From Deltaproteobacteria bacterium (GTDB lineage Bacteria > SAR324 > JACQKK01), in contig JAOUEW010000002.1 of assembly GCA_029858505.1 (NCBI GenBank), positions 354,851 through 418,850 of the forward strand: a stretch of DNA of 64,000 nucleotides, given 5' to 3'. This document shows positions 9,501 through 25,760 of the stretch, piece after piece. The notes beneath the pieces were generated by a model. The model saw nothing but the letters and a program-made list of their open reading frames with translations, was not told where the DNA came from and ran no database searches. Each line of letters starts with the position of its first letter. The first letter of the stretch is position 1. The position numbers and the translations under genes are program-made.

Positions 9501-12236
9501 ATGCAACGTCTGCTCGTGGGAACCAGACGGTGGAGTATCCGTGGCCAAGGATTGGCTCTAGTGTTCGCCGTACTTTGGAGTCTGCCCGTAGGGATGGCCT
9601 ATGGCCAAGGCAAACATGACCCTATGGTGATGGATTTGCAGAGCCAAGGGGCCCAGGTAACCTTCTCTCGCGCCAGCAAACAGGTGGGGTTCATTGGCAC
9701 CAAGGCTGGGCGGCCATTGGCCCTGCCCGGCGGGGTGGTCCCACGCTCTCCCCAGGAGGCCGCTTGGGCTCACATTTCGGCGTATGGGCCATTGTTTGGC
9801 GTGGCCAACCCCGCCCATGATCTGACGGTAATGAGTTCCCATACAGACCGTCTGGGGAACACCATGACCCGCTTCCAGCAGGTTCACCAGGGGGTTCCGG
9901 TGATGGGGGGGGAGATCATCGTGAACACCAACCCTGCCGGAGGCATGATCTCCGCCATTGGCAAGGCGTCTCCCAAGCTGGCGATGAGCACGACCCCGGC
10001 CATTTCTGCCCGGCAAGCCCAAAACACGGCCTTGGAACTGACGGCCAAAGGTTATCAAACCGACAGGGCAAGTCTTGCGGCGGGTCTGCCAACGCTGACG
10101 GTGTATGATCCACTGCTGCTGGGGGCCGGAAACAGCCCCGCCCGGCTGGTGTGGCGCATGGAGATTACGGCGGGCGGGGGGGAACCCATCAAGGAACTGG
10201 TGCTGGTGGACGCCCAGACCGGTGGGGTGCTTTTGCGCTTTAACCAAGTGGACGCGGTGAAGAACCGGGTGACCTACGATGCCAACAGTTCCAGCGCACT
10301 GCCCGGAACCCAGGTGTGTACTGAGGCCAGCAACAACACCAATTGCACCACCGGGACCATCATTACGGATGCCGACCATGCCCACCGCTACGCGGGGGAT
10401 TTTTACGATTTCCTCTTTAGCCAGCACGGCCGAGACAGCATTGATAACGCCGGGATGACGCTCAAATCCACCGTTCGTTACTGCCCCTTTGGTGGCCCCT
10501 GCCCCTTCGGCAATGCGTATTGGGACGGCACCCAGATGGTTTATGGCGCGGGCTATCCTGTGCAAGACGTGGTGGCCCACGAATTAACCCATGGGTTCAC
10601 CAGCAAAACCTCCAATCTTTTTTATGTTTATCAGTCTGGGGCCATCAACGAATCTCTATCCGATGTGTGGGGAGAATTCGTTGACCTTACCTATGCCGAT
10701 GCCGGTAGCGATGCCGCGGCTGACCGCTGGAAGTTGGGGGAAGACCTGGCCATCGGGGCCATCCGTAACATGGCTAACCCCACTTTGTTCAACGACCCGG
10801 ACAGGATGACCAGCCTGTTGTATGTGGTGAATGATGCCAACGCCGCTGGTTGGGACAACGGGGGCGTGCACACCAACAGCGGGGTGAACAACAAGGCGGC
10901 CTTTTTAATGGTGGATGGGGGAACCTTCAATGGCAAGACCATCACCGGTATTGGCATTCCCAAAACGGCGGCCATGTATTATCTGGCCCAGACCACCCTG
11001 CTGACCTCGGCATCGGACTATTTGGACTTGTACAATGCCCTGAACCAAGCTTGCCAGACCCTGGTGGGCGGGGCGGCCGGGATTACCGCCGCGGATTGTA
11101 CTCAGGTGGACAACGCCCTGTTGGCGGTGGAAATGAATCTTTCCCCCGTGGCGGGTTATAACCCTGAAGCGGCCGTGTGCCCGGTGGGGGCGACCCAGGT
11201 GGCGGTGTTTGCCGATGATTTTGAAGGGGGAACCGCTAAATGGTCCGCCAACGGATGGTATCTTTTGAATCAAACCAATGGGGGCCCCTATGCTACCTCA
11301 GGGGTCAATTCCCTGGCGGCAGATGACGTGGCCGTTGTGTCTGACCAAAAGGCCACCATTACGGTGAAAGTACCGAAGCAGCCCACAGCCGTAACCGCGC
11401 TGTATTTCCGGCACATGTTTTTGCTGGATTGGTGGGGGGCTTCATATTATGACGGTGGGGTGGTGGAGTATTCCACCGATGGCGGTGCTACCTGGACGGA
11501 TGCTGGCCCCCTGATGGACAGCGGGAAAACCTATGGCGGGGTGTTATCCACTCTTTATCAAAACCCTTTAGGTGGGCGTAATGCTTTCGTGGGGGATTCC
11601 CATGGGTTTGTGTCTACCCGGATCGATCTTAGCGGGTTCAAGGGGCAAACCCTTAAATTCCGCTGGCGGTTGGGAACGGATAATGCTGTAAGTTACTTAG
11701 GTTGGGTGGTGGATGACGTGAAGGCGTATAGCTGCAATTTTCCTCCCACGGCTCCGGTGTTAACCACCCCGGCGGATATGGCCACGGGGGTGGACCCAGC
11801 GGCTCCGGGGTTTGCGTACACGGCCTCTACCGATGCCAACGCCGATGTTTTAACCTACACCACCAAGGTCTGCACTAACGCGGCCTTAACCACGGGCTGC
11901 ATGGCCAACGTGCAGGTGGTGATGTTGGGGTTCAACCGGAAGGAATGGCTGGCGGGGCTGGGAGGCTTGGGAAGCACGGGATTGTTCGTGGCGGGGCTGG
12001 CGTGGCTGCCCCGAAGGAGATTCCGCCTGGGGCTGGCAGTCTTGCTCGTCTTTGCGGCCATGACCTTGCTGGCCTCTTGTGGCGGTGGTGGTGGTGGTGG
12101 CGGGGGAGGAGGAGGTACGCCCGCTCTTCCTCCGGTAAACTTGTCTCCGGCCACCACGTATTATTGGCAGGTGACGGTGGATGATGGCTTTACCGGCAAA
12201 GCTTCTAGCCCGGTGTGGAGCTTCACCACCCTGTAA
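9501..12236 (+). CDS. Secreted thermolysin-type (M4) metalloprotease
   Basis: A 911-residue zinc protease. The signal peptide lies at about residues 1-36, followed by an FTP/PepSY-type propeptide to about 245. The catalytic domain has HELTH at 360-364, Glu384 in GAINESLSDVWGE as third zinc ligand, and GVHTNSGVNNKA. A jelly-roll-like region begins at DDFEGG (about 573), then an Fn3-like repeat begins at PTAPVLTTPAD and finishes with TTYYWQVTVDD and SPVWSFTTL. Between the halves of that repeat lies an odd segment: hydrophobic about 817-836, RRR at 838-840, hydrophobic 843-859, then LLASC (Cys860) and 12 glycines. The start has an excellent GGGAGGAG site. It probably acts in the periplasm or outside the cell. 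Confidence 0.9.
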   Translation: MQRLLVGTRRWSIRGQGLALVFAVLWSLPVGMAYGQGKHDPMVMDLQSQGAQVTFSRASKQVGFIGTKAGRPLALPGGVVPRSPQEAAWAHISAYGPLFGVANPAHDLTVMSSHTDRLGNTMTRFQQVHQGVPVMGGEIIVNTNPAGGMISAIGKASPKLAMSTTPAISARQAQNTALELTAKGYQTDRASLAAGLPTLTVYDPLLLGAGNSPARLVWRMEITAGGGEPIKELVLVDAQTGGVLLRFNQVDAVKNRVTYDANSSSALPGTQVCTEASNNTNCTTGTIITDADHAHRYAGDFYDFLFSQHGRDSIDNAGMTLKSTVRYCPFGGPCPFGNAYWDGTQMVYGAGYPVQDVVAHELTHGFTSKTSNLFYVYQSGAINESLSDVWGEFVDLTYADAGSDAAADRWKLGEDLAIGAIRNMANPTLFNDPDRMTSLLYVVNDANAAGWDNGGVHTNSGVNNKAAFLMVDGGTFNGKTITGIGIPKTAAMYYLAQTTLLTSASDYLDLYNALNQACQTLVGGAAGITAADCTQVDNALLAVEMNLSPVAGYNPEAAVCPVGATQVAVFADDFEGGTAKWSANGWYLLNQTNGGPYATSGVNSLAADDVAVVSDQKATITVKVPKQPTAVTALYFRHMFLLDWWGASYYDGGVVEYSTDGGATWTDAGPLMDSGKTYGGVLSTLYQNPLGGRNAFVGDSHGFVSTRIDLSGFKGQTLKFRWRLGTDNAVSYLGWVVDDVKAYSCNFPPTAPVLTTPADMATGVDPAAPGFAYTASTDANADVLTYTTKVCTNAALTTGCMANVQVVMLGFNRKEWLAGLGGLGSTGLFVAGLAWLPRRRFRLGLAVLLVFAAMTLLASCGGGGGGGGGGGGTPALPPVNLSPATTYYWQVTVDDGFTGKASSPVWSFTTL
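12081..12116 (+). repeat. GGN codon run encoding Gly12 in the M4 protease
   Basis: Twelve consecutive glycine codons, mostly GGT at the start then GGG/GGA, directly after the Cys of the lipobox-like LLASC. Gains or losses of a repeat unit of three would keep the frame; slips in the G-run would truncate the last 40 residues. Confidence 0.9.
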
Positions 12237-12308: not shown

Positions 12309-12483
12309 CCGGCTAGACGACCTCAACCACTTCCTTTCTGGCGTTCGCTGTATGGTGACGCCAGAGAGGTTGTACGAAAGGGCAAGTCGGGGGAGCACCT
12401 TTGACCTTTCCCCCGTGTGGTAATCCTCTGTAAAGAAATGGGTTAAGGTCAATATTTACTCCCAATCCTCAATGAGGGGCACC

Positions 12484-13107
12484 ATGGCAAGATTAGCACC
12501 GGAATATAAAATAAAGGATATAGAAGATAATATGATGGATTTGGATTTGTTTCCTAACAATCCATTTATTAATAAAACATGGAAGGCGCATATACTGCCG
12601 GATTCATTTATCACAACAGAGCAGTTGCATTGTATTGTTGGGGCGGACGATAAAACTGTCCGCTCTAAAAAAATAATTCTTATCGCCACAGGAGACTACG
12701 AAGATAAGATTTCAAGAGTAAACGAAATCCCAATTGTTCAGATCAATAATAATGCTGAATATTGCAAAATAAGTAAAATTATAACAGATAATGATGTTGA
12801 AAGTATTGATAATTATTATAATAACAGTGATTTTAGCTTTACTTTCTCAGCCTATATTTTTCCTGAAACAAAAAAATGGGGTATAGTAACCCATCTTCCA
12901 AGTGAGGTCGCCATCATTGGGGGGGAACAGGATTTTATAGAAGCATTTGAGGAGTCTATGGGGGGTCGAGATTTATTAATAAATGACATATTCGAAATAT
13001 ATAATAACATGAGGCCGTTACCACACGATTATTTTTACACGCTAATCAAAGGTATTTATGGAGATGACATAGAAATAGAAAAGGATGATTATAATAAACC
13101 AAAATAA
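12484..13107 (+). CDS. A/T-rich orphan protein of unknown function (possible immunity protein)
   Basis: A protein of 207 residues that I do not recognise. Base use differs sharply from the neighbours: A/T-rich, with many AAT, ATA and AAA codons, which suggests recent acquisition. It is rich in Asp, Asn, Ile and Tyr, acidic overall, and has no membrane segment or signal peptide. A WGIVTHLPSEVAIIGG stretch resembles the compact alpha/beta style of immunity proteins, but this is weak. ATG 12484 is preceded by AGGGG with short spacing; ATG 12472 is in the same frame. It lies directly upstream of an RHS core remnant, a setting where immunity genes are common. Confidence 0.65.
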   Translation: MARLAPEYKIKDIEDNMMDLDLFPNNPFINKTWKAHILPDSFITTEQLHCIVGADDKTVRSKKIILIATGDYEDKISRVNEIPIVQINNNAEYCKISKIITDNDVESIDNYYNNSDFSFTFSAYIFPETKKWGIVTHLPSEVAIIGGEQDFIEAFEESMGGRDLLINDIFEIYNNMRPLPHDYFYTLIKGIYGDDIEIEKDDYNKPK

Positions 13108-13314: not shown

Positions 13315-14295
13315 TCAGCCCTCCTTCTTCCAAGCAACCAGGGGTCTCCCCAGCCAGGCTTGGGTCAGGGCCGCCAGGTCCGCTTTCTCCCCCTTTTTTT
13401 TCTCTTCCAATGGTTCCCACTCAATCTGCTCGATCACTCCTTCCTTCACCAGCAGGGCGGCCCAGAGGTCTTTCCCAGGGGCGGGTATTTGACGGGCATG
13501 AATGTAGGCCCGGGCGGAAATTTTTAATTCGGTCAGCGGAGGAGTTTCACCCTCGCCATGGAGTTCTAAAAACTCCGGATCGGTGAGGGCTTGTTCCTCT
13601 TCCCGCACGGTTTCCCATTCTTCCGGGGTAAGCTCACCCGGCGCCACCGGGCGCCCAAGGGCCGGGGCCAGACTGGCGGCCAGGGTGGCTTCCACCTTCT
13701 CCATGCTGGCCTGGAGGCCTTCCTTTCGCAGGGTCGTCACTCGCTTGTCTAGGGCCTGGGCGGCCAAACGGGCGAAGGCCGGAAAGGGGCAGGGCCACAG
13801 GGCGGCCATGATGTCCGCGGGGAAATCCAACAAAATGTTGCCCACCACCACGGAGGCTTCTTCCACCCGGCCTCCGCCGATGCCAGCGATGCGGCGGTGG
13901 TTCACTTCAATTTCGTTCATGCCTTCCAGGGTGGCGGGGCAGCCCAATTGGTTCAAGGCCGCCACCGGGGCGGCCAGCAGCCGGGCGTATAAACGCTTGG
14001 GGACGGGAGGCAGACGGCTGTGGTGGAACACGAACTGGTAGAACAATTGCTGGGAGTCTAAGTAGGTCAGCCCGCCCCCCACCCGGCGGCGGATGACCGG
14101 CAGCCCCCGGCGGGCGGCTTCGGCCCGGTGGATCACCTGTCCATAGGTTTGGTGATAGCCCAAACACAGGTAGGGCTGGGCGGGGGAACACAGCACCACC
14201 GTATCCTGAGACTGGGGGGTCATGCGGCGGGCCAGGGCATGGTACACCGCTTGGCTGGTGGCGGCCCCCACCGCCCCCAGCCGCACCAGCCGCAC
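13315..14295 (-). CDS. Lipoate-protein ligase/octanoyltransferase family protein
   Basis: A 326-residue member of the LplA/LipM/LipB (BPL-like) fold. The substrate-binding loop RRRVGGGLTY lies at residues 69-78, and the later NEIEVNHRRIAGIGGG (127-142) corresponds to the region holding the catalytic lysine in ligases and LipM. That residue is Arg135 here, so activity may be altered. It is last in the lipoate-assembly gene run. The frame opens with GTG 14295 without a good ribosome site; a CTG further upstream, at about 14322, is preceded by GGAGG and is in frame. Its stop codon sits at the edge of the RHS remnant, so its 3' end may have been reshaped. Confidence 0.8.
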   Translation of the reverse strand: MRLVRLGAVGAATSQAVYHALARRMTPQSQDTVVLCSPAQPYLCLGYHQTYGQVIHRAEAARRGLPVIRRRVGGGLTYLDSQQLFYQFVFHHSRLPPVPKRLYARLLAAPVAALNQLGCPATLEGMNEIEVNHRRIAGIGGGRVEEASVVVGNILLDFPADIMAALWPCPFPAFARLAAQALDKRVTTLRKEGLQASMEKVEATLAASLAPALGRPVAPGELTPEEWETVREEEQALTDPEFLELHGEGETPPLTELKISARAYIHARQIPAPGKDLWAALLVKEGVIEQIEWEPLEEKKKGEKADLAALTQAWLGRPLVAWKKEG

Positions 14296-14312
14296 GGGGG
14301 CGGTGTCTGGGG

Positions 14313-15407
14313 TTACGGGCGCCAGATGTCCTCCAACCGCATTTCTTTGCCAATCACCGCCAGGTCATCGGCTTCGGGGCGGAAGGGGTAATCGCGGAAG
14401 GGTTCCCCCGGCCGGTAGGAACCATAGGGGCGGTTGCAGGTCATTTCCCCCTGGCGGTCCGGGCAACCGTCGGTCATGAAGGCCTTTCCTCCGGCAATGG
14501 CCCGCCGCACCATCAACTCTGGGGCCTCCAGCCGGGCAATCTCTCCCGCGTCGTTGAACCCCACGGCTTCCCGGGGCAGGCCGTGTTCTTCCACCAGGTT
14601 TTTCACCAACTGCACCCGTCGCAGCCGGTGCAGGGGGGCCCTGGGGGCGGCCTCCATGGCGGTGCCTTCTTCTGGGTTGAAGCTAAACAAATAAGCGGCG
14701 ATCTGTTCTTCCTTCAGGTTATGGAACAACTCCATCAAGTCTCGGTCGGTTTCTCCCAGCCCCACCATGATGTGGCAGTTCACCTTCATGGGTCCAAACA
14801 GGCGGCGTGCGGCCCGGATCATTTTCCAATGGTATTCCCAAGAATGGGGCCCCTTGGCGCCCTTGCCCCGGGTGTTGCTGAACAGTTCGGGGGTCACGGC
14901 GTCCAGCCCCACCCCAATAATATCCACCCCCACGTCTTTCACTTCCACCAGCCGTTCTTCGTTCAGGGTGCTGGCGCTGACCAGGGCCGACAGCGGCACG
15001 GCTGGGGCCGCCTGGTGAATGGCCTGGGAAATGGCGATCAAATCGGGGTAGGCCCGGGGGTGGTGCACCTGCGACACGCACACCCGCCCCACGCCAGAGC
15101 GGGCTTCTTTTTCGGCCACTTTCTCGGCCACCAACGAGGTTGGATACAAGGGCCAATCTACCCGGATGAAACTTTTGTCCACGCTTTCCCCTTCTCGGGT
15201 GCGGGCCAGCCCGCAGTAAGTGCAGTTGGCCGTGCAGCTGACATCATAGTTTTGCAGCAGGTTGATGCAGCCGCAGCTGCAATCCCGCAGGAAGCGCCCC
15301 CGCACCAGGCGGAGTTCCATGGCGGCGGCGGCGGAGATGCGCACGTAATCGGGGCTTTGTTTGCCGGCGTCTTCCGCCGGGTTGTCGGCGCATTGGGCAA
15401 GGGTCAT
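14313..15407 (-). CDS. Radical SAM protein, LipS1/LipS2-like lipoyl synthase component
   Basis: A 364-residue radical SAM enzyme with the cluster motif CTANCTYC at 58-65 (CxxxCxxC). An extra cysteine group, CSCGC at 43-47, and two more in GCPDRQGEMTC near the C-terminus could hold an auxiliary iron-sulfur cluster. Sulfur-inserting radical SAM enzymes (LipA, BioB) need such a second cluster. Its neighbours are a second radical SAM protein, lipoate ligases and a GcvH-like carrier. This matches the LipS1/LipS2 two-protein lipoyl synthase known from archaea and some sulfur-oxidising bacteria. I cannot say which of the two it is. ATG 15407 fits; TTG 15440 is an upstream alternative. Confidence 0.75.
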   Translation of the reverse strand: MTLAQCADNPAEDAGKQSPDYVRISAAAAMELRLVRGRFLRDCSCGCINLLQNYDVSCTANCTYCGLARTREGESVDKSFIRVDWPLYPTSLVAEKVAEKEARSGVGRVCVSQVHHPRAYPDLIAISQAIHQAAPAVPLSALVSASTLNEERLVEVKDVGVDIIGVGLDAVTPELFSNTRGKGAKGPHSWEYHWKMIRAARRLFGPMKVNCHIMVGLGETDRDLMELFHNLKEEQIAAYLFSFNPEEGTAMEAAPRAPLHRLRRVQLVKNLVEEHGLPREAVGFNDAGEIARLEAPELMVRRAIAGGKAFMTDGCPDRQGEMTCNRPYGSYRPGEPFRDYPFRPEADDLAVIGKEMRLEDIWRP

Positions 15408-15440
15408 GGCAGGCTCTCGGTGAAAGGAGTGAAACAACAA

Positions 15441-16379
15441 TTACCACGGCACGCCGCAGCAGGCATCATGAAAGGTGGGGGCCAGGGCCCGTTCTTTGGC
15501 ATAGCCCACGCTGCCTTCGGCGGGGTAGGCAATGCCATTCAATCCGGCGTCGATGGCCATGCGGTCGATCACCCCCTTGGCCGGGCCCAGGGGCCGGGCG
15601 CAGCCCAGCACAATGGGGGTGGCGGGCAGGCGCTGCCGGGCCCGCTGAAAGAACGCTCCCATGTCTTCCGGTGGGGGGAGCTTCACCCCTTCCATGGGGG
15701 TTCCGGAAAGGGGCGTTAGCACCACCAGCACCAGCAGTTTGGGCGGGTGGCGGGCGATGATGTCGAGGGAGGCGTCTTCTCCCAGCATTTTTCCGTAGTG
15801 CAGCCCCAAAATAATGTGGGGGATGCTGGGCACTTGGTATTCCTCCAGCCAGGCCAGGCTTTGTTCGTAATCGGCCGGGGTAAGGTCCAGGTGATACACC
15901 TGCCGAATGGTGTCGGGGTGACCGATGATGTCCATCATGGCGCCGTCGATGCCCACCTGCCCCAGGGCTTTGGCGGTGGCCTGGTCCGGCACGCCGGGGT
16001 GCACCCGGATCAGCAGCCCCAATTCGTTTTTCACACGGGCCAGTTCATCCATGTGGGCCAGCAGGGGCACCCGCCCCTGTTTGTCGCTGCCGCCAGAAAT
16101 CAACACCCCCTGGGCGCCCTCGTCTTTGGCTTTTTGGCAGGCTTGAAACAGCCCCCCCGGCCCCTTGGGCAAGGGGGCCATGCCTTTCAGTTTTTCCGTG
16201 CCGCAATGGTCGCAGGCCAGGGCGCAGCCCCCCCCGGTCAGAGACACCGTGACGAACCGGTGAGCGCTTTGTTGGGCGTATTCACTGGTTTTGAATCGGC
16301 GAAACCCCGGCGCGTAGAACGAGATCTCATCGGGGAAGTTCTCTCGACGCAACGCCATCAAGTTTTCGGGTGGGTTCAT
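15441..16379 (-). CDS. Radical SAM protein, second LipS1/LipS2-like component
   Basis: A 312-residue radical SAM protein with CALACDHC at 52-59 (CxxxCxxC), followed by a TIM-barrel pattern (GVLISGGSD, IDGAMMDIIG, PSIPHIILGLHYGKM, GCARPLG). Two adjacent cysteines near the C-terminus (DACCGVPW) could help bind an auxiliary cluster. It is distinct from its neighbour and from LipA. The two-gene arrangement beside a fused lipoate ligase supports a paired lipoyl synthase in which each protein inserts one sulfur into the bound octanoyl chain. ATG 16379 is preceded by a GGACAGG-like site; the frame is open to 16463. The gap to the next gene is 33 bases. Confidence 0.75.
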   Translation of the reverse strand: MNPPENLMALRRENFPDEISFYAPGFRRFKTSEYAQQSAHRFVTVSLTGGGCALACDHCGTEKLKGMAPLPKGPGGLFQACQKAKDEGAQGVLISGGSDKQGRVPLLAHMDELARVKNELGLLIRVHPGVPDQATAKALGQVGIDGAMMDIIGHPDTIRQVYHLDLTPADYEQSLAWLEEYQVPSIPHIILGLHYGKMLGEDASLDIIARHPPKLLVLVVLTPLSGTPMEGVKLPPPEDMGAFFQRARQRLPATPIVLGCARPLGPAKGVIDRMAIDAGLNGIAYPAEGSVGYAKERALAPTFHDACCGVPW

Positions 16380-16475
16380 GGCCTGTCCGATGGAGTGAAT
16401 GGCGTGAAGTGAAACGTTTGAGATAGCTCTTTGCCTGGAGGAAACATCTCCAACCTGGACCAATCCATGACCTAA

Positions 16476-17606
16476 TTATACGGGCAGAGCCTGACCGTCG
16501 GGGTTTAAAAAACACCCGTACAGCGCGGCATCCCTGGCTTCTCCACCCCCAGCCAACCGAACGGCGGTGGCCACGGCCTTGGCTAGGGGCTCCAGGGGCA
16601 GGGCGGCCAGTTCGTTGGCATGGGCGGCATGGGCGGCCCGCAGGGTCGCCTCCACCGCGGCGGGGTCGGCGGAGTGCCAGCGCAGCCGGGCCTCCAGGTC
16701 GGCCACGGCCCCTTCCGGGGCAAAAAAATCTCCACCGATGTACACCGCCTTCACCACGGCCCCGGCGCGGGTGACACGCACTTCCAGCAGACCCGCCGGG
16801 GTCTTCTCCCTGGCCGTGGCAAAGGTGTCGGGGACGGCCACCGTTTGATGAACCCAACTGGGTTGGGTGTATTTCTCCGCTTGCAAGGCTCGAATCTGGG
16901 TCTGTTCCTCCGGGGTGTAGGCTCCCTGGCTCAGGGAGACCCCAAACTCCTTCCGGTATCCATCGGCCACTCGTTCCCGGGTTTCCTCCAGGGTCAGGTC
17001 GCTTCTTCCGGCCAGTTCCCGCACGGTGGCCGTGCGGGCGGCCACCTGGGAGATCTCTTTGTCGGTGATTTTTTCAAAGGGGGTGTTCAGCACCCGCAGC
17101 ATATGGGCTACATCTAGCCCCACCAACAAAGAGGCATGGAACAACATGCCGCCGGATGGCGCCCGGTATATTCCCAGCCCTGCCAGCTTCCGCCCCTGGG
17201 CTTCGATATCATTCTTCCCGCGAAAGGCCGCCTGAATGCCCAGGGCGGCCAGACCCTGGGTGAGGCCCAGCGAGAAGCGGGCCATGGTTTCCCTGGCTCT
17301 GGCCCAGGAGTCTTCTCCCGCCCCCGGCAGGGTGAGGGCCACCCCCAGTTGATCTGGCCCCATCACGATGGCGCCGCCCCCGGTGGGCCGCCGGTTGACT
17401 GGCAGGCCCATGGCCTGGCAAGCGTCTAGGTGAATCTCGTTTCCCAGCGTTTGGAACCGACCCACCAGGGCGCAGGGGGCATAGGTGTACAGCCGCAGGG
17501 TGGGGGGGCTGGTGCCCTCGCCGGCCCGGACGGCCATCACCTCATCGGCGGCCAGCCCATAGTCGTGGGCCACTCCGTCTTCCTTCACCAGCCGCCAAGG
17601 AATCAT
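16476..17606 (-). CDS. Lipoate-protein ligase with C-terminal accessory domain, sLpl(AB)-like
   Basis: A 376-residue ligase that attaches lipoate or octanoate to carrier proteins. RRPTGGG (72-78) forms the lipoate-binding loop, and KNDIEAQGRKLAG (131-143) holds the catalytic Lys140. From about residue 265 a second domain resembles LplB, the accessory domain needed for adenylation (VRVTRAGAVVKAVYIGGDFF, then an arginine/alanine-rich helical part). The fused layout matches the sLpl(AB) ligases that act with LipS1/LipS2. It lies between the GcvH-like gene and the radical SAM genes on the same strand. ATG start. Confidence 0.88.
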   Translation of the reverse strand: MIPWRLVKEDGVAHDYGLAADEVMAVRAGEGTSPPTLRLYTYAPCALVGRFQTLGNEIHLDACQAMGLPVNRRPTGGGAIVMGPDQLGVALTLPGAGEDSWARARETMARFSLGLTQGLAALGIQAAFRGKNDIEAQGRKLAGLGIYRAPSGGMLFHASLLVGLDVAHMLRVLNTPFEKITDKEISQVAARTATVRELAGRSDLTLEETRERVADGYRKEFGVSLSQGAYTPEEQTQIRALQAEKYTQPSWVHQTVAVPDTFATAREKTPAGLLEVRVTRAGAVVKAVYIGGDFFAPEGAVADLEARLRWHSADPAAVEATLRAAHAAHANELAALPLEPLAKAVATAVRLAGGGEARDAALYGCFLNPDGQALPV

Positions 17607-17852
17607 GGGGTTCTCGGTTTTATTACACGATTTTTTATGGCCCTATTTCTGGCTCTGCCCTAAATTTTTCAAAATTCATTTCTAGTCTTGCTGAACTTTC
17701 TGCATCCCGTTTGAATCATTGATCCCCCTTCTCCTGTCCTTCTTTCTCAATTCCTTTGGGCTTGGCCGGATATGTCCTGTCTTCTTACGCGCAGTGTTCT
17801 CTCGGGCTTTGTTCTGCATCTACATGAATACATAACGGGGAACTCGAGCCGG

Positions 17853-18290
17853 TTAATCAATCCAGCCCTGTTCCTTGTAGCGCAGAATTTCTTGTTGAGA
17901 CCAAACCCCCAAGTCTGGACCCCCGACCAATTCTTTGGATTCTTTCTCCCAATGGTCTGGGCGGATTTTCATCATCCAGCCCTGGCCGAAGGGGTCGTGG
18001 TTCACCAGGGCGGGGTTTTTTTCGGCCCCGGTGTTGCGGGCGGTCACCACTCCGCTTACTGGGGAAATCAACTCTCCGGTCATTTTGGCGGCTTCTAGAG
18101 AGCCCGCCGGGCGGCTGCGGGACACCTGGGTGCCCTCGGCGGGCAGAGTCAGGTAGGCCAAATCTCCCAGGGATTCCAGCCCCAACAGGTCAATGCCCAC
18201 CAGAATCTCGCCCTCTGGCGTGGGGCAAGCCCACATATGGGTGGAGCGGTCATACCAACGGTCGGCGGGAAAGGGATAGGAAGCGCCCAT
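17853..18290 (-). CDS. gcvH: GcvH-like lipoyl carrier protein
   Basis: A 145-residue lipoyl-domain protein with GSLEAAKMTGELISPVSG at about 63-80; Lys69 is the expected lipoylation site. The GIDLLGLESLGDLAYLTLP stretch before it is typical of glycine cleavage H proteins. The C-terminus (WSQQEILRYKEQGWID) is slightly longer than usual. No glycine cleavage partners (gcvT, gcvP) are near; instead it leads the lipoate ligase and radical SAM genes. It may therefore be the scaffold on which lipoate is built, or a dedicated carrier like LbpA of sulfur oxidisers. A 246-base gap separates it from the ligase gene. Confidence 0.85.
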   Translation of the reverse strand: MGASYPFPADRWYDRSTHMWACPTPEGEILVGIDLLGLESLGDLAYLTLPAEGTQVSRSRPAGSLEAAKMTGELISPVSGVVTARNTGAEKNPALVNHDPFGQGWMMKIRPDHWEKESKELVGGPDLGVWSQQEILRYKEQGWID

Positions 18291-18387
18291 GGATGTTTCC
18301 AGGAAAAGGGTGACTGGGAGAAAATCTCAACTTGCTGCTGGATTCTATTCCCATATCAAACTGAAGGGAAATAGCCTTGTGATTTCC

Positions 18388-19146
18388 TCACATTGTCAAA
18401 TACGCCAGGGCCAGCCGAAAGGACCGATGGGCCAGGGTTCCCTGGCTCCAGGCCCGAAAGGGCTTTCCCAGGGCTTCTCCTTGCCATTCCCCGTCGTGTG
18501 GCCCCGCCGCCCCAGAAAAGGGGTTTTTCAAAGGCCGGGCGGTCACGGCCAGATAGGGCAGGCTCCACCCCTGGCCCAGGGCTTTTACAGCGGCTTCTTT
18601 CACGCACCACAAATCCAGCAATGCGGATGCGCGCTCCGGTTGGTCCGCCAGCCATTCCCGCTCCAGGGGGGTGAATACCATGGCTTCCAGGGCCGGGTGC
18701 ACCGGGGTGACGGGCTCCAGGTCAATCCCCACCCCCGGTAAGGTTGTGGGGGGAAGGGTCTCGGGGGTCTGCCATACCGCCGCCAGGGCGGTTCCCCCGG
18801 CGTGGGCCAGGCTGACCCCCAGCCCCGGCTGGGCAAACACCGGCTGGCCGGAGGGCAACGAACGGAGTTCATCCTGTGGGAAAAGAGAGAGGGGCTTGGT
18901 GGGGGAAAACCGGCTGGCCACCGCCTGTTTGGCCGCCCACCGGGCGCTGGCCCACTCCCCCCGCCGCTTGGGAATTCGCAAACGGGCCAGTTGGGCTTGT
19001 TCTTCCGGCGAAAGAAACGGGGGCAGATTTTCCGGTGGCTCCACGGCCACCCAAGTCAGGGTCACGTTTCGCTGACGGGCCGCCAGGGTCACGGCCCCAG
19101 GGGGAATCGGCAGGGGAGTAGGCATGGGTATGGGCAAGGGGGGCAT
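18388..19146 (-). CDS. 4'-phosphopantetheinyl transferase, Sfp type
   Basis: A 252-residue enzyme that moves phosphopantetheine from CoA to carrier proteins. The diagnostic motifs are GVGIDLEPV (Mg-binding Asp and Glu) and LWCVKEAAVKALGQG (W-x-x-KEA-x-K). The Sfp class, at double the AcpS size, often serves polyketide, peptide or fatty-acid carriers. The N-terminus is a proline-rich run of about 17 residues, probably disordered. It is first in the minus-strand run that continues with the lipoyl carrier. Activated acyl carrier protein supplies the octanoyl group for lipoate, so the placement is sensible, though the gap of 97 bases leaves operon membership open. Confidence 0.9.
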   Translation of the reverse strand: MPPLPIPMPTPLPIPPGAVTLAARQRNVTLTWVAVEPPENLPPFLSPEEQAQLARLRIPKRRGEWASARWAAKQAVASRFSPTKPLSLFPQDELRSLPSGQPVFAQPGLGVSLAHAGGTALAAVWQTPETLPPTTLPGVGIDLEPVTPVHPALEAMVFTPLEREWLADQPERASALLDLWCVKEAAVKALGQGWSLPYLAVTARPLKNPFSGAAGPHDGEWQGEALGKPFRAWSQGTLAHRSFRLALAYLTM

Positions 19147-24161: not shown

Positions 24162-25760
24162 ATGAGACTGTCGTCAATACGCATTCAAAATTATAAAAGC
24201 ATAGAAGACATAACAATTGATATTGATAAGATGAGCGACGGCTCCTACACCTATGGCTTGCTTGGCATTAACGAGGCTGGCAAAAGTAGCATTTTAAAGG
24301 CAATTGCCTTAAAGGATGACGACTTAAAGTCACTTACTTTAGATAGTTTTATGGACAAAACCAAACCCATTTATGTGTCGTATAATTATGGCGATATTAA
24401 GGTAGACGAATTCGCAGAAAAAACAAAAATACATCTTTCGGATGACACTGAAGATGAAGATGAAGATGAAGATGAAGATGAAGATGAAGTCGGAACAAAA
24501 AAAGATGAAAATTTAGACAAGGATGGTTGGTTAATAAAAAAAGACTACCTAAGTAAAATAAAAACTATTGAGGTGAATTACTCCTTTTCACTTACATCTG
24601 GGGTGGAAAGGTCCGTAAAATATCACCTAATAAATAACGAACAGACAAAAGAAACAGATAAAGAATATGATGATATTTTTGATGGGCTTGATGAATTAGT
24701 AGAAAAGGGTGAGTTATCTTGTACCTATTGGGCGGTAAGTGAAAAATACTATATTACAAAGTCTATTAATTTAGATACTTTTCATAAAACGCCAGATATA
24801 TCTTACCCGCTGAATAATTGCTTTAAACTTGTTTCCCCTAAAATTAGGGAGATGACAAAGCAACCGATGTCTTCAATAGATAAGGAAGAGGTGCAGAAGG
24901 CCCTGGGGGAAGGCGTTACAACACATATTAAAGAGAAATGGAGTGGGCATCCAATTGAAATTACATTTGATATTGATGGAAGGGAAATTAATTTTCATGT
25001 GAAAGACCTTGATCAGAAAAGGTCACAATTGGTTGGCCAACGGAGTGATGGTTTCAGGCAAATGATTTCTTTTTTGATGACGATTTCGGCGGATAACAAA
25101 AACAAACAAATCAGTGATTCTATTCTGTTGTTGGATGAACCCGAAAGGCATCTTCATCCACAATCTCAATTGAATTTTCTAAGCGAATTAATAGAGATTA
25201 CTAAAAATGAAAGAAATAACATCTTATTATACGCCACCCATTCCAACCATATGGTAGATAAAAAACTTCCATTTAGAAATTTTATAGTTAAAAAAGAACA
25301 AGGAAAAACGGACCTTCATAAGATTAAAAAAGAGGAATATACCTATAATGCTATAAATTATGAAGTATTTGATGTTTCGGCGGTTGAATACCACAATGAG
25401 CTTTATGGGGCATTACACAGCAGGTATGCGGAAGCCACTGGTAAAGGAAGATTAACTGATTTTGATGGGTTTTTAATTTCGGAATATGGAGAAAAATATG
25501 ACCTTAAAAAGGAAAAACCGAACACAAAGACAAGGGCTGAAAATGACCAGACACTTTCATCATACATCCGAAACTGTATACACCATTCAGAGCATGGGTT
25601 CGTATTTGAACCTGATGAAATAAAAAAATCAATAGGTATCCTTAAGGGTATTTTAGACGAGTACAAGCCTTCGCAAGAAATTCAGCCAACAAATGAAGGG
25701 GGAAGAGAGGAAAGCGAAACGAATAAACCCAGCAACTCTTCCCCACCCATAACATCCTAA
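24162..25760 (+). CDS. AAA (AAA15/21-type) ATPase with C-terminal HEPN-like motif, putative defence protein
   Basis: A 532-residue ATPase of the OLD/ABC-like group. It begins with MRLSSIRIQNYKSIED, has Walker A GINEAGKSS (35-43), Walker B SILLLDEPERHLHPQ (about 320-334) and the switch histidine in ATHSNH (about 356). An acidic repeat (ED)6E lies near residue 100. The C-terminus carries SYIRNCIHHSEH, where R470-N-C-I-H-H475 fits the RNxxxH catalytic motif of HEPN ribonucleases. This layout recalls RloC/PrrC-like or AAA-HEPN abortive-infection proteins. The gene is strongly A/T-rich compared with both neighbours and stands alone, which points to horizontal transfer. No partner gene is present. 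Confidence 0.8.
   Translation: MRLSSIRIQNYKSIEDITIDIDKMSDGSYTYGLLGINEAGKSSILKAIALKDDDLKSLTLDSFMDKTKPIYVSYNYGDIKVDEFAEKTKIHLSDDTEDEDEDEDEDEDEVGTKKDENLDKDGWLIKKDYLSKIKTIEVNYSFSLTSGVERSVKYHLINNEQTKETDKEYDDIFDGLDELVEKGELSCTYWAVSEKYYITKSINLDTFHKTPDISYPLNNCFKLVSPKIREMTKQPMSSIDKEEVQKALGEGVTTHIKEKWSGHPIEITFDIDGREINFHVKDLDQKRSQLVGQRSDGFRQMISFLMTISADNKNKQISDSILLLDEPERHLHPQSQLNFLSELIEITKNERNNILLYATHSNHMVDKKLPFRNFIVKKEQGKTDLHKIKKEEYTYNAINYEVFDVSAVEYHNELYGALHSRYAEATGKGRLTDFDGFLISEYGEKYDLKKEKPNTKTRAENDQTLSSYIRNCIHHSEHGFVFEPDEIKKSIGILKGILDEYKPSQEIQPTNEGGREESETNKPSNSSPPITS
24450..24488 (+). repeat. Hexamer tandem repeat (GAAGAT)6GAA inside the AAA-HEPN gene
   Basis: Six perfect GAAGAT units plus GAA encode alternating Glu/Asp. 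Because the unit is six bases, slippage would change length without breaking the frame. Confidence 0.95.

Follow-up and report, generated by a model that had tools for sequence, protein, structure and literature searches.

The closest described counterparts of the locus studied here belong to the sLpl(AB)–LipS1/S2 pathway of lipoate assembly, for which precedent has been published (PMC6067878, PMC10332631). Lipoate is an essential cofactor, and assembly by LipS1 and LipS2 has recently been proven as a second route to it; the route raises the question of how the LbpA clients are discriminated from GcvH and E2 proteins. The ligand residues of the Thermococcus LipS1 and LipS2 were mapped by mutation (PMC9585515), and human LIPT1 has been proposed to descend from a ligase whose activating function was lost (PMC7253636). 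We analyzed a 64,000-nucleotide stretch of DNA (the window) from contig JAOUEW010000002.1 of a Deltaproteobacteria bacterium (GCA_029858505.1), which carries a LipS1/S2 gene set on its − strand, together with a GcvH-fold carrier, termed LbpW, and a second LplA-fold protein, termed Lig2. We consider it highly probable, on the strength of its gene set, residues, synteny, co-occurrence, and linkage, that this locus is an operon dedicated to lipoate assembly on LbpA-type carriers in a sulfur oxidizer with an sHdr system; its activity is predicted from characterized homologues.

A probable lipoate-assembly operon and its predicted enzymes

Six open reading frames (ORFs) occupy window positions 13315–19146 on the − strand, of which the five-gene lipoate part spans 13315–18290. 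Domains were assigned with Pfam and NCBIfam profiles, and the genes are given below in 5′ to 3′ order.

18388..19146, − strand: Sfp-type 4′-phosphopantetheinyl transferase (PPTase); ACPS, 66.9 bits
17853..18290, − strand: LbpW, GcvH-fold lipoyl carrier, 145 aa, acceptor Lys69; Pfam GCV_H, 89.1 bits
16476..17606, − strand: sLpl(AB)-type lipoate/octanoate:protein ligase, 376 aa, two domains; LplA-B_cat 125.6, Lip_prot_lig_C 24.9, LplB 28.5 bits
15441..16463, − strand: LipS1-type radical S-adenosylmethionine (SAM) lipoyl synthase, 340 aa; NF053742, 211.8 bits
14313..15440, − strand: LipS2-type radical SAM lipoyl synthase, 375 aa; NF053743, 190.5 bits
13315..14295, − strand: Lig2, second LplA-fold protein, 326 aa; LplA-B_cat, 90.5 bits (cut-off 27)

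Successive genes are separated by 97 (PPTase–LbpW), 246 (LbpW–sLpl), 12 (sLpl–LipS1), 0 (LipS1–LipS2), and 17 nt (LipS2–Lig2). Whereas 246 nt lie between LbpW and the ligase gene in the window, the two abut or overlap in relatives (loci L037, L039, L040, and L043). The order LbpW–sLpl(AB)–LipS1–LipS2–Lig2 was found again in two families of the order, including further genera of the family to which this bacterium belongs, and the arrangement is therefore not a product of chance. Translation probably starts at Met29 of the listed ORF in LipS1 and at Met12 in LipS2, since similarity to homologues sets in close to these residues. The initial annotation had described a six-gene, same-strand locus with two different radical SAM proteins bearing additional cysteine groups, a two-domain sLpl(AB)-like ligase, and a GcvH-like carrier; the coordinates, the recurring gene order, the profile matches above, and the cysteines described below confirm this observation.

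LipS1 and LipS2 each match their own model best and each carry a Cx3Cx2C radical SAM motif and three auxiliary cysteines, joined in LipS1 by a histidine. In LipS1 these residues are C80/C84/C87, C288/C335/C336, and H216, equivalent to C27/31/34, C230/C276/C277, and H159 of Thermococcus LipS1; in LipS2 they are C69/C73/C76 and C121/C326/C335, equivalent to C39/43/46 and C85/C276/C279 of Thermococcus LipS2, with all pairings made by order and motif rather than by direct alignment. The auxiliary cysteines are invariant in 12 LipS1 and 9 LipS2 homologues. LipS2 proteins of this order also contain an extra N-terminal CxCxC (C54 and C56 beside C58), which Thermococcus LipS2 lacks.

The LipS1 model was the sole profile match of LipS1, at a score below the curated cut-off of 230 bits, and LipS2 likewise fell short of its cut-off of 270 bits, with BioB (45.2 bits) and LipA (36.1 bits) as runners-up. 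We rejected these low scores as an argument against membership, since most homologues taken from other phyla also score under the cut-offs (for LipS2, all four that were scored), although their genes are found in synteny with those of sLpl and carriers. In a tree that included the genome's own LipA, LipS1 and LipS2 fell into separate clades with support of 100/99. The phylogeny that had been suggested as a check thus places both proteins within the LipS1/LipS2 clades and apart from LipA; BioB was compared by profile only, outside the tree, and scored lower.

The ligase combines an LplA domain retaining the catalytic lysine (GRKLAG) with a C-terminal LplB domain whose motifs are visible in the alignment, is linked to lipS1 and lipS2, and falls in the sLpl clade. 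By analogy with characterized homologues, on which the enzymatic steps are modeled, sLpl(AB) would activate octanoate or lipoate with ATP and load it onto a GcvH-like carrier at the acceptor lysine. LipS2 is then predicted to introduce the C8 sulfur and LipS1 the C6 sulfur, with a sacrificial auxiliary [4Fe-4S] cluster consumed by each enzyme. As modeled on GcvH/LipL and GCSH/LIPT1, assembly could take place on LbpW, and Lig2 could transfer the product to the LbpAs of the sHdr system.

Putative sulfur-oxidation genes in the genome and its relatives

The 2.79-Mb genome encodes further lipoate proteins. Canonical LipA on contig C5 scored 375 bits, above its cut-off, which disposes of the idea that the genome lacks LipA. 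Searches with PF21948 and PF03099 yielded three LplA-fold proteins, namely sLpl(AB), Lig2, and a LipM-type octanoyltransferase on contig C9 (L015) with a cysteine at the LipM-type position. They revealed no separate LipB, and an additional PF03099 match at C5:46100 is presumably a biotin ligase. A normal GcvH is also present; its occurrence at the same coordinates (64471–64827) in contigs C6 and C11 suggests duplicated contigs in the assembly. The LipS1/S2 set is therefore additional to the LipA pathway. The initial annotation, which had favored the alternative pathway over LipA/LipB and had called for a check of the genome for both genes, was right about the presence of the alternative set but needs amending in that the set occurs alongside LipA and an octanoyltransferase; the sHdr cluster, on another contig, lay outside its view. 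LipA does not refute the alternative-pathway reading, because its occurrence alongside LipS1/S2 is common in bacteria with these synthases (PMC10332631) and because the genome's sHdr system needs dedicated lipoylation.

The cluster for that putative system lies on contig C14 (118.8–132.8 kb) and comprises HdrC, LbpA, DsrE, DsrE2, a DsrK-like protein with its membrane anchor, a thioredoxin-like protein, another LbpA, a membrane HdrD, EtfA, EtfB, a B3-like HdrD with a CCG domain, HdrA, and HdrB, with a 255-aa protein between HdrA and HdrD. The family hallmark of LbpA, one cysteine near each terminus, is present in both LbpAs. As judged from its genes, the cluster probably represents a type II sHdr-like arrangement, which is defined by clustered shdrC1, B1, A, H, B3, and etfAB (PMC11582611) and corresponds to Group III of PMC6067878; of this set, C, B, A, a B3-like protein, and EtfAB were recognized. 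The DsrK-like/TmcC-like membrane pair and the membrane-bound HdrD in this region (L013/L014) suggest that electrons may pass directly into the quinone pool.

Of the 52 class genomes compared, five had both LipS1 and sHdrC, one had sHdrC alone, four had LipS1 alone (one a fragment), and 42 had neither (Fisher p = 2.7e-4, in a test that ignores shared ancestry). The lip operon and the shdr cluster share a contig in two of these relatives, at a distance of ~5 kb in G038 and ~10 kb in G015. The LipS1 fragment, in G008 (L045 669–1259), covers query residues 159–336, stands without the rest of the operon, and is perhaps a decayed copy; we left it out of the operon count.

Several observations weigh against assigning the operon to sHdr. 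Three draft genomes (G005, G025, and G029; 74–91% complete) have the operon and no detected sHdrC or HdrB, and in the draft of G025 no LbpA besides LbpW was detected. In the window genome itself, the lipoate locus and the sHdr cluster lie on separate contigs, and no lipT was found at the lipoate locus. A client of the operon may also lie outside sHdr. One assembly gap per draft could hide a single sHdr cluster, and G005 retains LbpA and DsrE2 genes.

Candidate roles of LbpW and Lig2

The acceptor lysine of LbpW (K69) is invariant in the 13 carriers aligned. LbpW forms a clade distinct from both GcvH and the LbpAs of sHdr systems (support 100/99). Among the sequences compared, it is closest to a carrier from Desantisbacteria that is encoded between an Hdr-like gene and lipS1. 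We rejected an assignment to GcvH, for which the scores were 91.1 (cut-off 117) and 84.2 bits (cut-off 115.85) and the tree position was outside the GcvH clade. We also rejected an assignment to LbpA: Lys69 is there, but both defining cysteines, N- and C-terminal, are missing in all six LbpW sequences compared (the G005 copy is cut N-terminally by a contig end), as they are in the Desantisbacteria carrier. Some archaeal LbpAs also lack both cysteines.

Lig2 follows LipS2 in all eight class genomes holding the operon, which makes it a conserved member and bears out the earlier remark that a second ligase-like protein stands outside the usual set. In an alignment of 22 sequences, the active-site lysine is replaced by arginine (Arg135) in the eight operon Lig2 proteins and retained in the 14 other ligases and transferases. 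The latter include members of the Lig2 family itself: one is encoded beside lipS2 on a contig from Thorarchaeota, and in G125 and G266 others occupy a site between DsrE2 and DsrE of the sHdr cluster. Apart from sLpl, the class yielded only two further significant matches to Lig2, a Lys-bearing relative within the G003 sHdr cluster and a protein in G050. Lys-bearing Lig2-family ligases located between DsrE2 and DsrE in type II sHdr clusters (L154 7801–8910 and L157 8183–9283) and in a different Hdr/LbpA cluster (L156 7799–8848) represent a second ligase lineage tied to LbpA.

The C-terminal Lpl(AB) motifs KTPGG and GDFF are lost from Lig2, while the RRxxGGG loop is kept and the pocket residues R69, R70, G73–75, N127, G138, and G140 are invariant. 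Cys44 is invariant in the operon clade and is also found in some Lys-bearing relatives. The AlphaFold model (predicted local distance difference test score, pLDDT, 76) shows an LplA fold at good confidence for residues 1–240, with 3r07 as the best Protein Data Bank match (E 2.7e-20); it is poor beyond residue 247 and is therefore no guide to the C-terminal domain. Rough ratios of nonsynonymous to synonymous substitution (dN/dS; dS saturated) were ~0.18 for Lig2 and 0.04–0.08 for its operon partners, indicating faster, yet constrained, evolution. Judged by its sequence, Lig2 is a maintained protein rather than a decaying gene. The role of an additional, ordinary ATP-dependent ligase is unlikely for it, because it lacks both the family lysine and the LplB motifs, and the Arg135 of every operon copy speaks against that assignment. 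Membership in the LipM/LipL or LipB octanoyltransferases was discarded as well, given the lack of a conserved cysteine at either position. We infer that Lig2 would act in transfer or assistance.

One quite possible role, though short of probable, is that of a non-catalytic partner of sLpl(AB) or LipS1/S2 (a scaffold, carrier-docking, or specificity subunit), with LbpW acting as a third LbpA in sulfur oxidation. The loss of the active-site lysine and of the C-terminal motifs is consistent with such a partner, as is the faster but still constrained evolution, and genomes with EtfAB-linked clusters are known that encode two or three LbpAs (PMC6067878). However, the many invariant pocket residues go beyond what docking alone would need, and the cysteines to which sulfur handling is ascribed are missing from LbpW.

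About equally likely, and to be entertained only tentatively, is a lipoyl relay, a sub-hypothesis on LbpW and Lig2 that is compatible with the operon serving sHdr. sLpl(AB) would octanoylate LbpW, LipS2 and LipS1 would convert the octanoyl group to lipoyl, and Lig2, as a LipL/LIPT1-like amidotransferase, would move the lipoyl group to the LbpAs of the sHdr system. Such a scheme would account for an operon carrier that is distinct from the sHdr LbpAs and keeps its acceptor lysine without their two cysteines. It also agrees with a Lig2 that, within a two-domain ligase family, has lost activation features while keeping its substrate loop; LIPT1 is likewise thought to have lost activation via its C-terminal domain (PMC7253636). 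The invariant Cys44 points in the same direction, but it is shared with some Lys-bearing relatives, and Lig2 has no cysteine at the LipM or LipB positions. The lysine may be required for transfer as well, the published sLpl(AB) modifies LbpA directly, and G025 holds LbpW and Lig2 with no LbpA detected as recipient.

That Lig2 is an active ligase or octanoyltransferase, using arginine for lysine and having a second acceptor or donor specificity, appears improbable. The confidently predicted LplA fold and the conserved glycine loops would allow it. However, BirA, LplA, and LipB require the active-site lysine, every other ligase and transferase in our comparison retains it, and the LplB activation motifs are absent.

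Neighboring genes and comparison with known systems

It is very improbable that the PPTase extends the system by providing the ligases with holo-acyl carrier protein (holo-ACP) or another carrier: the gene lies on the same strand, 97 nt upstream of LbpW, but is not adjacent to the operon in relatives, and sLpl(AB) takes free acids rather than acyl-ACP (PMC6067878). No PPTase gene was found next to the carrier in the relatives with a readable upstream flank (L037, L040, and L043), and the PPTases of the relatives searched sit on other contigs. On synteny, we therefore regard the PPTase as a neighbor outside the system, contrary to the initial annotation, which had suggested that it may mark an extended version.

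Elsewhere in the window, positions 12472–13107 (+ strand), just past the 3′ end of the lip operon, hold a 211-aa orphan ORF that is AT-rich (GC content at third codon positions, GC3, 0.31), looks foreign, and had no match in Pfam, NCBIfam, or PADLOC. A 532-aa AAA_15 ATPase at 24162–25760 (+ strand) resembles Old/AriA-type defence ATPases; its gene is AT-rich (GC3 0.33) in an otherwise GC-rich window and is possibly an acquired defence gene. Positions 9501–12236 (+ strand) encode an M4 thermolysin-like metallopeptidase of 911 aa, in which a propeptide motif is accompanied by a MAM-like domain and a long run of glycines.

The core of the operon is a further member of the published sLpl(AB)–LipS1/S2 pathway (Tanabe 2023). 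As in Thioalkalivibrio and Hyphomicrobium, LipS1, LipS2, sLpl(AB), and a GcvH-like acceptor are encoded in one operon, in a genome that also has the LipA pathway and sHdr (PMC10332631). In contrast to those systems, the locus here has no lipT, its maturation genes lie outside the shdr cluster, its carrier lacks the LbpA cysteines, and a Lys-less Lig2 is added after lipS2. With LbpW and Lig2 as conserved additions, the five-gene form is a new variant of the pathway; we know of no prior description in the part of the open-access literature that we checked. All radical SAM and auxiliary ligands of Thermococcus kodakarensis LipS1/LipS2 are conserved (PMC9585515), whereas the ligase is fused rather than split into Lpl-N and Lpl-C, and LipS2 has the N-terminal CxCxC. 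The C14 cluster shares HdrC, HdrB, HdrA, the B3-like HdrD, EtfAB, and LbpAs with EtfAB-linked type II (Group III) sHdr (PMC11582611, PMC6067878), but also includes a DsrK/TmcC-like pair and, as its second HdrD, a membrane-bound form; the lip genes are unlinked to it in the window genome and linked in G015 and G038.

With the LipM–GcvH–LipL relay of Bacillus subtilis and the human LIPT2–GCSH–LIPT1 relay (PMC7253636), the operon shares a GcvH-like carrier and a same-scaffold transferase candidate without ligase activation features. It differs in that the synthase is LipS1/S2, the first acyl step would be carried out by a ligase, and Lig2 lacks the active-site lysine. An operon with a private carrier and a retired-looking ligase offers a direct test for a lipoyl relay in the LipS1/S2 pathway. 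If true, lipoyl relay would have arisen independently here, in what would be, to our knowledge, its first instance serving sulfur oxidation. Lig2 also offers a parallel to LIPT1, as a lipoate ligase that would have lost activation and been retained for another role.

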